Shown: positions 349 to 4,787 of the stretch, one piece after another
How the letters are laid out: every line of letters begins with the position of its first letter
Position numbering within the stretch: the stretch's first letter is position 1
From: Nitrospirota bacterium
GTDB lineage: Bacteria > Nitrospirota > Thermodesulfovibrionia > Thermodesulfovibrionales > UBA6898
DNA length: 45,169 nucleotides
Reading direction: 5' to 3'
Assembly (NCBI GenBank): GCA_016214855.1
Contig: JACRMT010000014.1
Coordinates: forward strand, 1 to 45,169
Notes under the pieces: model-generated
The model's input: the letters and a program-made list of their open reading frames with translations, nothing else
The model's database searches: none
What the model was told of the DNA's origin: nothing
Position numbers and translations under genes: made by a program

Positions 349-1533
349 ATGAAAATAAGAAGGGTCTTATCTATCATCGGGTTGCAATTTATTGGCCTCA
401 TCTTTTGCGCATTGTCCGAGGGTGTCGTCAATGTGCAATGCCCGGGAGACATAGATGGGGACGCGCAGTGGACAGGGGCTGAAGTGCAGCCACCGAACAC
501 GCAGTGCATTCACCTTGCTGCCGGCGATGGTTTCGTAACCATGGCTGACGGCCATCTCCAGTACACCTTTGGATTTTCCGAGGTGACCGGTGTGCTGCCG
601 GAAGATGTCATGAGCACCGGGATGCTTGCGGCCGAATTTCCCGGCCCGACCATCAAGGTAAAGGAAGGATCCAATGTCTATCTGACCCTGACCAACGTGG
701 GGATGATAAGGCGGCCGGATCTGTTCGATCCGCATTCGGTTCATTTTCACGGCTTTCCGAACGCTGCGCCGATCTTCGACGGCGAGCCGATGGCGTCTCT
801 CGCCATCAACATGGGTTCCAGTCTGACCTATTACTACCAGGCGCCTGAGCCAGGCACCTATATGTATCACTGCCATGTAGAGGCGACGGAGCATATGCAG
901 ATGGGCATGCTCGCAAACTTGTGGGTTACCCCGCTGCAGGATGGTACAACGGTTGGCGGCTGCACCGCGCAGCAGTACGTGTTCAATGACGGCGATGGCT
1001 CGACCTGCTATGATCTGGATTTTCCCATACAGCTCAGCGGCTTTGACTCTATTTTTCATGACCTGCATATTGCAGTCCAGCCGCTCCCCTTTGCCATGAT
1101 GAAGGACAACTATCCGATGATCAATGGGCGCGGGTATCCTGACACCATCAACCCCAATCCTCTGTCGGCACCAGCAGAGAACGGCGGCATTCAATCACAG
1201 CTTATGAGCTCGCTGATCACGGCGACAGCCGGGCAGAAAATCCTGCTCCGCGTTTCCAGCCTTGGCACCGTGGATTTTTACACCTTGTCCGTCCTTGGCA
1301 TACCCATGAGGGTGGTCGGCAGAGACGCGAGAATACTGAGGAGTTCCTCGGGCCAGAACCTTTCGTACATTACCAACTCTGTCACCCTGGGCGGCGGCGA
1401 GTCTTATGACATCATTCTTGACACGGCCGGTATTGCACCCGGCACCTATTTCCTGTACGCGAAAGACCTGAACAACCTGAGCAACAACACGGAAGATTTC
1501 GGCGGCATGATGACTGAAATCGTTATCCTGTGA
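349..1533 (+). CDS. Two-domain multicopper oxidase subunit carrying the type 1 copper site
   Basis: A secreted cupredoxin protein of 394 residues. The start at 349 has an AAGGAG seven bases upstream and is followed by a hydrophobic signal-like segment; the frame is open further upstream but without comparable signals. The first cupredoxin domain (about residues 50-205) holds H129-x-x-H132-x-H134-G and then H174-C175-H176 with H182 and M187, which is a full type 1 copper set (His, Cys, His, Met) plus two His-x-His halves of a type 2/3 cluster. The second domain (about 220-394) keeps the fold pattern, but the positions that normally read HPxHxHG and HxH are replaced (for example 'VDFYTLSVLG'). 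Alone it can supply only four of the eight cluster histidines. The next gene supplies the other four. Family assignment is firm; substrate (phenols, Fe(II), Mn(II), Cu(I)) is unknown. Confidence 0.85.
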   Translation: MKIRRVLSIIGLQFIGLIFCALSEGVVNVQCPGDIDGDAQWTGAEVQPPNTQCIHLAAGDGFVTMADGHLQYTFGFSEVTGVLPEDVMSTGMLAAEFPGPTIKVKEGSNVYLTLTNVGMIRRPDLFDPHSVHFHGFPNAAPIFDGEPMASLAINMGSSLTYYYQAPEPGTYMYHCHVEATEHMQMGMLANLWVTPLQDGTTVGGCTAQQYVFNDGDGSTCYDLDFPIQLSGFDSIFHDLHIAVQPLPFAMMKDNYPMINGRGYPDTINPNPLSAPAENGGIQSQLMSSLITATAGQKILLRVSSLGTVDFYTLSVLGIPMRVVGRDARILRSSSGQNLSYITNSVTLGGGESYDIILDTAGIAPGTYFLYAKDLNNLSNNTEDFGGMMTEIVIL

Positions 1534-1561
1534 GCTCTTGATAAAGCGAAGGAGGAGTTTA

Positions 1562-2836
1562 ATGGAAAACACATCTAAGAGAAAAACGATAGGGATATGG
1601 TTATTGTCCGCAGTGGTTGTCCTGTTTGCAGCATTCCCAGCGCACGGAGCCATAGACGGCATCACCGGTACGACATTCAATCTGACGGCAAGACCGGGAT
1701 ATATCTCGACCGCCGAGGGAGGCAGTTACCTGATGTGGGGATACGCCAACGGAATTGGATCAGGCGCGATGCAGTACCCAGGTCCCACCCTGATCGTTAA
1801 TCAGGGAGATGTGGTCACGGTCAATCTCAGCAATCAATTGACGATGCCGGTATCGATCGTCTTCCCCGGCCAGTCTGCTGTTACGGCAACCGGAGGGACG
1901 CCGGGACTTCTGACCCGCGAGGCTGCTCCAGGCGGAACTGACACGGTGAGCTATACCTTCACGGCTGCTCAGCCAGGGACCTACACCTATTACAGCGGGA
2001 CGCGGCCAGAGTTGCAGATCGAGATGGGGCTTGTGGGAGCCTTGATCGTGCGGCCGACCACTAATCCGGCAACGCAGGCCTACAATCACCCCGATTCTCA
2101 GTTCGATCATGAATATCTCTTTCTGCTGAGTGAAATTGATCCTATCATCCACGACCAGGTCTCTGCCGGCAATATGGCGTTGGTGGATAACACTACCTAT
2201 TTCCCGGTCTACTGGATGATCAACGGCCGGACCGGACCTGACACCATGACGCCGGCCAATAATCCCCTGCTGCCGAACCAGCCCTATAACAGCATGCCAA
2301 TGATGCACCCCGGTGAAAAGATCCTTCTCAGGATGATCGGCGGCGGCAGGGACATGCATCCGTTCCACACCCACGGCAATCACCACAAGGTTATTGCCCG
2401 CGACGGCAGACTGCTTTCGAGCGGCGTGGGAGCCGATCTTGCAGAGATGGCCTTTACGACCACGGTTGTGCCGGGCTCGACTGCTGATGCTATCTTCGGC
2501 TGGACGGGCGACAGGCTCGGCTGGGACATGTACGGGCACACGGCGGGAGATCCTCTGCAGCCGAACGAGTATGCACCTGACCACGGGAAACCCTTTCCGG
2601 TAACATTGCCGACCCAGCTGGAGGTCACCAATGGACAGTTCTTCAGCGGCAGTCCGTTCCTCGGGACTATGGGCTATATACCTCCGGGCGAGGGAGGCTT
2701 CAACCCCAATAGCGGCTTCTTATACATGTGGCATTCTCACAATGAGAAGGAGATTGTTAACAACGATATTTTTCCAGGCGGGCTGATGACCATGATGATT
2801 ATTGAAGCTCCCGGCGTAGTGCTTGACAACCCATAG
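1562..2836 (+). CDS. Two-domain multicopper oxidase-like subunit carrying only the second half of a trinuclear site
   Basis: 424 residues, start at 1562 behind a strong AAGGAGG, 28 bp after the previous stop. Signal peptide at about residues 1-32 ending 'FPAHGA'. Domain 1 aligns with domain 1 of the preceding protein but has lost its ligands: the HFHG position reads 'IVFPGQ' and the HCH position reads 'YYSGTRP'. Domain 2 has H266-P-F-H269-T-H271-G and 'MWHSHNEKE' with H391-S392-H393. Ser392 sits where a type 1 copper Cys would be in an HCH motif, so it should hold no type 1 copper but offers two His-x-His pairs. This is the complement of the preceding gene. I infer that the two proteins assemble; neither looks like a complete oxidase by itself. 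Confidence 0.8.
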   Translation: MENTSKRKTIGIWLLSAVVVLFAAFPAHGAIDGITGTTFNLTARPGYISTAEGGSYLMWGYANGIGSGAMQYPGPTLIVNQGDVVTVNLSNQLTMPVSIVFPGQSAVTATGGTPGLLTREAAPGGTDTVSYTFTAAQPGTYTYYSGTRPELQIEMGLVGALIVRPTTNPATQAYNHPDSQFDHEYLFLLSEIDPIIHDQVSAGNMALVDNTTYFPVYWMINGRTGPDTMTPANNPLLPNQPYNSMPMMHPGEKILLRMIGGGRDMHPFHTHGNHHKVIARDGRLLSSGVGADLAEMAFTTTVVPGSTADAIFGWTGDRLGWDMYGHTAGDPLQPNEYAPDHGKPFPVTLPTQLEVTNGQFFSGSPFLGTMGYIPPGEGGFNPNSGFLYMWHSHNEKEIVNNDIFPGGLMTMMIIEAPGVVLDNP

Positions 2837-2851
2837 GAGAAGGAGATGGAA

Positions 2852-4267
2852 ATGAAAATATGCAGAGGAAAATCAATAGTGCAGGGCGTCTTTCTGATGC
2901 TGATCTGCATTCTTGGGTTAAGCAGCGCCTCCTGGGGTGCGGAGTTCTGGCTCAGGGCCGAAACGCTTACGAAGACCATGCCGGACACAAGCGTGGTCAC
3001 CATGTGGGGCTTTGCTCAGTGCACTGACGGCACGTATGCGAGCTGTACTCCGGCAACGGTGCCCGGGCCGCGCTTGACAGTGCCAGTCGGTGACACGACT
3101 CTGACTATCAACTTGCGCAACAATCTTACCGGCCCCTTTGTCGAGCCGGTATCGCTCGTGATTCCCGGACAGACGATCGTTCCTGCACCAGTGAGGAATC
3201 CGGATGGCAGGGTCAGATCATTTACAACCGAAACGCCTCCGGACAACGCCACAACAGTAACCTACACATGGACCAGCATGAAAACCGGGACCTATCTCTA
3301 CCAGAGCGGCAGCCATCCGGCTGTACAGGTCCAGATGGGACTGTACGGCGCTGTCACCCGTAACGCAGCTGCAGGGCAGGCCTATGGTCCATCGACCGCG
3401 TACGCTGCAGAAGCGATCCTGTTGTTCAGCGAGATCGACCCTGTGCTCCATGGGCATGTTGCGGCCGGCACTTATGGGCAACTGCCGCCAACCGGCATTA
3501 CCAGCACTATGAACTATGAACCCAAGTATTTTCTGATCAACGGCGAACCATTCACCCCTGCTGCCCCTCGTATCTCCGCTGGAATAGTCGGCCAGAACCT
3601 GCTGCTTCGTTTTCTGAGTGCAGGGCTCAAGCACCGTGTGCCGACCATCTACGGCTTGAATATTTCCCTGGTGGCTGAGGATGGTAACCCTTATCCCTAT
3701 CCGAAAGAACAGTATTCGCTGCTGCTCTCTCCAGGCAAGACCCTGGACGCACTGGTGACGGCAACTCCGCAGGGGGAATTCCCCGTGTACGACCGCAGGC
3801 TGGGATTAACAAACAATGCAGCTCCGTACGGAGGCATGCTTACCTACTTGAGTAACCTGCCGCTTACCATAACCACGACCAGTTTACCGGGTGGGGTTGT
3901 GGGCACAGCATATCCTGCAACGACCCTGACGGCAACAGGCGGCTCTGGTCCGAAGACCTGGTCTGTATCGGCTGGAGCGCTTCCTGGCGGCTTGACGCTG
4001 AGCGCAGCAGGAGTAATTACCGGTACGCCGACAGCACCGGGGACATTCAATTTCACGGTGCAGGTAACAGACAGTAGCGGCACAGCAACAAAGCCTCTGA
4101 GTATTATTGTGACAGTAGGGCCGCTTACCATAACCACGACCAGTTTACCGGGTGGGGTTGTGGGCACAGCATACCCTGCAACGACCCTGACGGCAACAGG
4201 CGGCTTTGGTCCGAAGACCTGGTCTATAGTATTGGGCGGAGGTGGCATCGGGGTTCCCATAACGTGA
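2852..4267 (+). CDS. Ligand-free cupredoxin-like protein with C-terminal Ig-like repeats
   Basis: 471 residues. I prefer ATG 2852 over ATG 2846 because the AGGAG at 2841-2845 is then six bases away. Signal peptide about 1-30 ('SASWGA'). Two cupredoxin-like domains (about 31-170 and 175-335) align with the two preceding proteins, but no His-x-His motif survives: the domain 1 sites read 'LVIPGQ' and 'YLYQSGSHP', and the domain 2 site reads 'LKHRVPTIYG'. It is probably a structural partner. Residues from about 337 are He_PIG-type repeats: one complete unit and a second that stops abruptly after 'GIGVP' with the unrelated ending 'IT'. The last complete 141 bases of repeat recur at the window start, so the short ending could be a real truncation or an assembly branch. 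Confidence 0.75.
   Translation: MKICRGKSIVQGVFLMLICILGLSSASWGAEFWLRAETLTKTMPDTSVVTMWGFAQCTDGTYASCTPATVPGPRLTVPVGDTTLTINLRNNLTGPFVEPVSLVIPGQTIVPAPVRNPDGRVRSFTTETPPDNATTVTYTWTSMKTGTYLYQSGSHPAVQVQMGLYGAVTRNAAAGQAYGPSTAYAAEAILLFSEIDPVLHGHVAAGTYGQLPPTGITSTMNYEPKYFLINGEPFTPAAPRISAGIVGQNLLLRFLSAGLKHRVPTIYGLNISLVAEDGNPYPYPKEQYSLLLSPGKTLDALVTATPQGEFPVYDRRLGLTNNAAPYGGMLTYLSNLPLTITTTSLPGGVVGTAYPATTLTATGGSGPKTWSVSAGALPGGLTLSAAGVITGTPTAPGTFNFTVQVTDSSGTATKPLSIIVTVGPLTITTTSLPGGVVGTAYPATTLTATGGFGPKTWSIVLGGGGIGVPIT
3859..4257 (+). repeat. Tandem He_PIG-coding repeats inside the third oxidase-like gene
   Basis: A unit of about 260 bp starting 'CCGCTTACCATAACCACGAC' at 3859 recurs from 4119, the second copy being incomplete. 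The copies are nearly identical at the DNA level (for example TATCCT against TACCCT), which indicates recent duplication or gene conversion. Confidence 0.85.
4117..4257 (+). repeat. Exact 141-bp direct repeat, copy 2
   Basis: Identical to bases 1-141. The sequences diverge at 4258, five codons before the early stop of the third oxidase-like gene. Confidence 0.9.
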
Positions 4268-4370
4268 ATATGTCTATCATGGGTCCCAACATGAACCATG
4301 AATCGTGCGGATGATGCAGGGCATGACGGGACAACAAGAGAAGATTCCTGCAGAGAAGAAGGGCCGCCAT

Positions 4371-4787
4371 ATGAGTTATCTCATATGGTGGCTTCTTCTG
4401 TCCCTTCTTCTGATGTGCAGCGGAAATAGTTCGGCGGCTGATGATGTTCGGTCCGCAATGGAAATGCAGTGGGGTGTAAAGGTCATGCCGATACACCTGT
4501 CAGCGGAAGGATATATGCTCGACTTCCGCTACCGGGTGCTTGATCCGGAAAAAGCTGCGCCCCTCTTCGACCGGAAGATCAAGCCTTACCTGGTAGACGA
4601 AGCCACTGGCGCGGTATTGGGTGTACCGGAACCGCCAAAAGTGGGGGCGCTCCGAAATACACGGAAGCCCCTGCCGGACCGCAACTACTTTATCCTGTTT
4701 GCCAACCCGGGACGGTACGTGCAGAAGGGCAAGAAAGTTACTGTAGTGATCGGTGATTTCAAGGTCGAACACCTCGTCGTGGAATGA
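4371..4787 (+). CDS. Small secreted protein of unknown function next to the oxidase genes
   Basis: 138 residues from ATG 4371; the frame is open back to GTG 4305, but a signal peptide (about 1-24, 'WWLLLSLLLMCSGNSSAAD') begins exactly at 4371 with a weak AAGAAGG upstream. The mature part has no cysteine cluster; it contains a 'LDFRYRVLDPEKA' strand-rich segment and ends in 'VTVVIGDFKVEHLVVE', suggesting a compact beta-rich periplasmic protein. It lies 103 bp after the oxidase genes on the same strand, so it may be an accessory or chaperone of that system. I do not recognise a named family with certainty. Confidence 0.65.
   Translation: MSYLIWWLLLSLLLMCSGNSSAADDVRSAMEMQWGVKVMPIHLSAEGYMLDFRYRVLDPEKAAPLFDRKIKPYLVDEATGAVLGVPEPPKVGALRNTRKPLPDRNYFILFANPGRYVQKGKKVTVVIGDFKVEHLVVE

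Follow-up and report, generated by a model that had tools for sequence, protein, structure and literature searches.

The window analysed here, i.e. the whole stretch of 45,169 nucleotides of contig JACRMT010000014.1 from a Nitrospirota bacterium, starts within a gene of which only a C-terminal tail with a putative Ig repeat is left (2–295). It is followed, likewise on the forward strand, by three genes, hereafter P1 (349–1533), P2 (1562–2836) and P3 (2846–4267), and by a gene for a small secreted protein of 160 aa with no assigned family (4305–4787). For P2, either TTG at 1538 or ATG at 1562 is possible as the start codon. All three proteins carry a Sec-type signal sequence at the N-terminus, as judged by inspection, and in each of them the Pfam domain Cu-oxidase_3 was found above the cut-off together with Cu-oxidase or Cu-oxidase_2. 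The initial annotation, which described three adjacent secreted proteins with two cupredoxin domains each, was thus borne out, and its three ORFs and all its residue numbers were correct on recheck. Features that it had not listed are two further conserved histidines (H129 and H266), a putative Ig (He_PIG) tail in P3 (around residues 341–473), which follows the two cupredoxin domains (around residues 35–337), and the truncation of a giant upstream gene by the contig start. Bases 1–141 of the contig are an exact repeat of 4117–4257, probably due to an assembly overlap in a repeat common to the giant gene and the P3 tail. The three cupredoxin cores are not affected, but the P3 frame stops soon after the repeat and the true end of P3 is therefore uncertain.

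The copper ligands are distributed unevenly over the six domains. Domain 1 of P1 contains a type 1 site and four histidines of a trinuclear site, i.e. H129 (type 1) and H132 and H134 (trinuclear) in the motif HSVHFHG (residues 129–135; 733–753, forward strand), as well as H174 and H176 (trinuclear) and C175, H182 and M187 (type 1) in the motif HCHVEATEHMQMGM (residues 174–187; 868–909, forward strand). The other four trinuclear-site histidines are located in domain 2 of P2, where the motif HPFHTHG (residues 266–272; 2357–2377, forward strand) contributes H269 and H271 along with H266, and the motif HSH (residues 391–393; 2732–2740, forward strand) contributes H391 and H393, with S392 replacing the type 1 cysteine. 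As had been noticed before, only these two of the six domains keep ligands, and the other four, including domain 2 of P1 and domain 1 of P2, are without ligand pairs. The P3 of the window has an HGH at residues 202–204; no HxH pair occurs elsewhere in P3, and position 204 is a histidine in just 1 of 76 relatives. A histidine between the two domains is conserved in all three proteins, i.e. P1 H237 (FDSIFH, 104/105), P2 H197 (IDPIIH, 99/105) and P3 H202 (IDPVLH, 92/105), and these residues could line a pseudo-threefold axis and bind another metal.

Ligand conservation was assessed in 105 complete P1-P2-P3 cassettes, 95 of which are distinct by sequence (92 effective). H129, H132, H134, H174, C175, H176, H182 and M187 of P1 and H266, H269 and H271 of P2 were each present in 105/105, and H391 and H393 of P2 in all 102 rows without a gap. 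Gaps aside, none of the eight trinuclear and four type 1 ligands of the split site, twelve in all, thus varies in any cassette. A pseudogene or decay is ruled out by invariant ligands across 105 loci and, judging from the sequences, the ligand pattern is neither chance nor decay.

Searching GTDB genomes for relatives of P1 yielded 223 confirmed stretches, of which 80 loci were kept. The carriers include Nitrospirota, Desulfobacterota, beta- and gammaproteobacteria, Acidobacteria, Myxococcota, Planctomycetes and Hydrogenedentes. Among them are the cultured bacteria Desulfopila sp. IMCC35006, Desulforhopalus sp. IMCC35007 and Amphritea pacifica ZJ14W. The search for a conserved triplet, suggested with the initial annotation, showed that the cassette recurs in the same gene order in around 95 distinct cases from many phyla, and misassembly as the origin of the triplet is ruled out by the identical order in independent genomes. 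Homologues of P1 or P2 that occur alone had been regarded as evidence against a split oxidase; no solitary P1 was found, and each of the 82 loci examined has P2 directly after P1, so that this check spoke for the proposal. The next gene is P3, except in six loci in which the contig ends. In the loci examined P1, P2 and P3 are three separate genes. Among 396 Nitrospirota genomes, the same 20 harbour P1, P2 and P3, additional weak matches to P2 and P3 being other oxidases, and in a Desulfobacterota sample P1 was found in 16 of 345 genomes.

In most loci a giant gene is located directly upstream of P1, mostly encoding 1,640–2,130 aa with SdrD_B and beta-helix-like regions; the truncated gene at the contig start is its counterpart in the window. 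In Hydrogenedentes (L074, 2154–9041; L077; L089) the giant and P1 are fused, with the giant at the N-terminal end of P1, and in five genomes of Nitrospirota (L114, 5351–12565; L115; L116; L117; L118) it is joined to the C-terminal end of P3. These fusions link it to the cassette. We rejected the view that a common C-terminal tail is the rule for the giant and P3, as just 8 of the 46 loci that were tested agree with it. The loci in which a tail of the same type ends both proteins of one genome are L034, L035, L036, L037, L061, L065, L070 and L073, and in L065 and L070 this tail looks dockerin-like by eye. Other neighbours are a sigma-54 regulator, a subtilase and the 160-aa protein, homologues of which were found in 38 loci, usually right downstream of P3. 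Some loci also harbour the copper-delivery genes SCO1 and NosL and a cytochrome c/binding-protein fusion nearby.

Comparison with oxidases of known structure indicates how the two sets of ligands may belong together. P1 domain 1 aligns motif on motif to domain 1 of the blue copper oxidase of N. europaea (3g5w), and the alignment of P2 to the same protein extends across the motifs of domain 2. Two-domain oxidases have their trinuclear site where domain 1 of one chain meets domain 2 of its neighbour, and those of type C bind the type 1 copper in the N-terminal domain, i.e. domain 1 (PMC13151041). The ligands of P1 and P2 together thus amount to exactly one type C active site, placed on two gene products.

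For structure prediction we used read-through translations of natural loci in relatives that have P1-P2 or P1-P2-P3 in one frame. AlphaFold2 gave a pLDDT of 84.6 and a pTM of 0.85 for the pair (L035, P1-P2, 815 aa) and a pLDDT of 79.0 and a pTM of 0.82 for the triple (L043, P1-P2-P3, 1,156 aa, 36 sequences), whereby the read-through fusion of in-frame genes forces the modelled chains near each other. The linkers have a very low pLDDT, and the high pTM may therefore be taken as a confident placement of the chains against each other. The modelled P2 half matched 2zwn and 3g5w with a Z of 31 and an rmsd of around 2.5 Å. According to Foldseek, the triple model aligns along the whole of ceruloplasmin with a high rmsd and is not superposable in gene order, which would be expected from a contact between P1 domain 1 and P2 domain 2, as such a contact would make the ring order differ from the gene order. 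Foldseek also showed that the triple model covers the Thermus laccase at a TM of 0.68–0.76 across 756–759 columns, which in the model would fit P2 domain 1 packed on P3 domain 2, like domains 1 and 3 of the laccase. The VIA structure comparison listed two-domain matches alone, with no four- or six-domain match and none to ceruloplasmin or MnxG. Inter-protein mutual information in 105 triplets, with signal peptides excluded, did not place the predicted domain contacts above chance (p 0.2–0.3), the analysis being underpowered.

Sequence, ligand conservation, synteny, gene fusions and fold support an oxidase made of P1, P2 and P3. We therefore consider it likely that the three proteins form an obligate heterotrimeric extracellular multicopper oxidase, i.e. 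a six-domain ring with one active interface. We also lean, with somewhat less assurance, towards the fuller picture of an obligate heterotrimer with a ceruloplasmin-like ring and one active interface that is borne, in many bacterial phyla, by a giant surface scaffold. The initial annotation had proposed a heteromeric six-domain oxidase with a single shared site, and this proposal gains support from the ligand inventory, the synteny, the half-matches to type C and the AlphaFold2 placement; from these we infer the physical complex, the meeting of the eight histidines, the copper loading and the oxidase activity. The six cupredoxin domains would be arranged as in the trimer of a two-domain laccase or as in ceruloplasmin, with the trinuclear copper site kept only at the interface of P1 domain 1 and P2 domain 2. 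An electron donor would reduce the type 1 copper of P1 domain 1, and the electrons would pass through C175 and its flanking histidines, the Cys-His bridge of HCH, to a cluster held by H132, H134, H174 and H176 of P1 and H269, H271, H391 and H393 of P2, which would reduce O2 to water. The route from type 1 copper over Cys-His to the cluster, with reduction of O2 to water, is established multicopper oxidase chemistry. P3 would close the ring and carry or contact the adjacent giant surface protein. The substrate is a guess, and a doubtful one: a metal ion in its reduced form (Fe, Mn or Cu) would be plausible in view of the copper-delivery genes nearby and of the ecology of the carriers, which belong, judged from record titles, to groundwater and to sulfur- and iron-cycling lineages.

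A related division of ligands was found in other Nitrospirota, where two adjacent genes, A and B, split them as P1 and P2 do (L027, 6492–8843; L028, 6325–9089; L029, 6681–9513; L030, 7831–10715; L033, 5020–9384). These split oxidases comprise two genes, once three. In the phylogenetic tree P1, P2 and P3 are each monophyletic, with P2 and P3 as sister clades (95); A clusters with these two (93), and the grouping of B with P1 is weak (56). Protein A starts with a twin-arginine (Tat) signal; B, which is the type 1 subunit, lacks a signal sequence, and in each of the five loci its start codon is preceded by a stop codon. If B is extracytoplasmic, it must exit together with A, which would call for a complex before export. 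The sequences suggest that A and B may be exported as a preformed complex, with B hitchhiking on A, and this pattern lends indirect support to a physical association in the sister system. A further adjacent pair with ligands split likewise was seen in L120 (4959–7305), its A-type protein clustering with A and its B-type protein standing alone.

The sister system also bears on the question of whether P3 belongs to the enzyme. P1 and P2 alone could be the active split oxidase, as a heterodimer or a P1:P2 oligomer, with P3 as an adaptor or anchor and the ring not completed. The two-gene systems have no third subunit, the long tails of P3 are variable, some genomes have P3 fused to the giant, and in a single genome (G118) P3 lies around 15 kb away from P2, all of which would agree with a peripheral role. 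However, P3 is part of every complete cassette, its two-domain core is conserved and the triple model has a pTM of 0.82 for the placement of the three chains, and we therefore regard an oxidase of P1 and P2 alone as rather improbable.

There is even less reason to believe that the proteins act singly, P1 being a homotrimer that serves as a cupredoxin for electron transfer or resembles a nitrite reductase, and P2 and P3 binding copper or having a structural role. It is true that P1 alone combines a complete type 1 site with four histidines and that the fold is common to copper nitrite reductases, but the eight trinuclear-site histidines are invariant and yet split exactly into halves, and the three genes always co-occur, both in the loci examined and across the 396 Nitrospirota genomes. 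Moreover, in place of the Asp in DxH and the single type 2 copper of copper nitrite reductase, P1 has HSVHFH and HCH, so that a histidine occupies the position of the catalytic Asp, which we take to be Asp98. Since large surface proteins dominate the neighbourhood, the cassette might also be thought of as a non-catalytic, copper-storing or structural part of a giant surface protein assembly. For such a use there would be no need to keep all type 1 and trinuclear ligands invariant over around 95 distinct cassettes, as they are, and we give this explanation hardly any credence. The heterotrimeric oxidase is thus the reading that we prefer.

If it is true, a redox enzyme exists with a catalytic metal cluster common to two different gene products, in a cassette widespread in sulfur-, iron- and nitrogen-cycling bacteria, of which profile-based annotation takes each of P1, P2 and P3 for a separate multicopper oxidase. 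Our literature search, with most subscription papers outside its coverage, did not turn up any publication about a two-domain oxidase that is split or heterotrimeric, and the papers searched held no description of the A/B two-gene system. Models of multicopper oxidase evolution predict that triplication turned a two-domain protein, whose trimer has three sites, into a six-domain protein, two sites being lost (PMC3600357). The cassette appears to represent triplication and site loss without fusion, i.e. the unfused counterpart of the step from homotrimeric two-domain to monomeric six-domain enzymes, and makes this step testable.

Among known systems, P1, P2 and P3 each match the profiles of the multicopper oxidase superfamily, and the type 1 ligands plus eight trinuclear histidines are found only in P1 and P2 jointly. 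With type C oxidases, such as 3g5w and the metagenomic laccase 2zwn, the cassette shares the two domains, a type 1 site that is N-terminal (P1 H129, C175, H182 and M187) and a trinuclear site that is predicted to lie between neighbouring chains. However, the type C enzymes known so far form homotrimers in which all three sites are complete and both trinuclear halves are on one polypeptide, whereas here the halves are on different genes, with one site per predicted trimer. The A/B pairs also have one protein with domain 1 ligands and one with domain 2 ligands on adjacent genes, but they lack the ligand-free third protein, and their Tat signal is on A, with none on B. Like the Mnx complex (MnxG with MnxE3F3), the cassette would be a heteromeric bacterial multicopper oxidase; in Mnx, however, MnxG is a six-domain chain by itself, and MnxE and MnxF are small and without known homologues. 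Finally, the cassette resembles ceruloplasmin and MnxG (PMC3600357, PMC5622069) in its six cupredoxin domains and in the single trinuclear site that is predicted to be left. Both of these enzymes are one polypeptide each, with type 1 sites in domains 2, 4 and 6 of ceruloplasmin and in domain 2 of bacterial six-domain oxidases, whereas P1, P2 and P3 are three separate, unfused chains, and their only type 1 site is located in domain 1 of P1.
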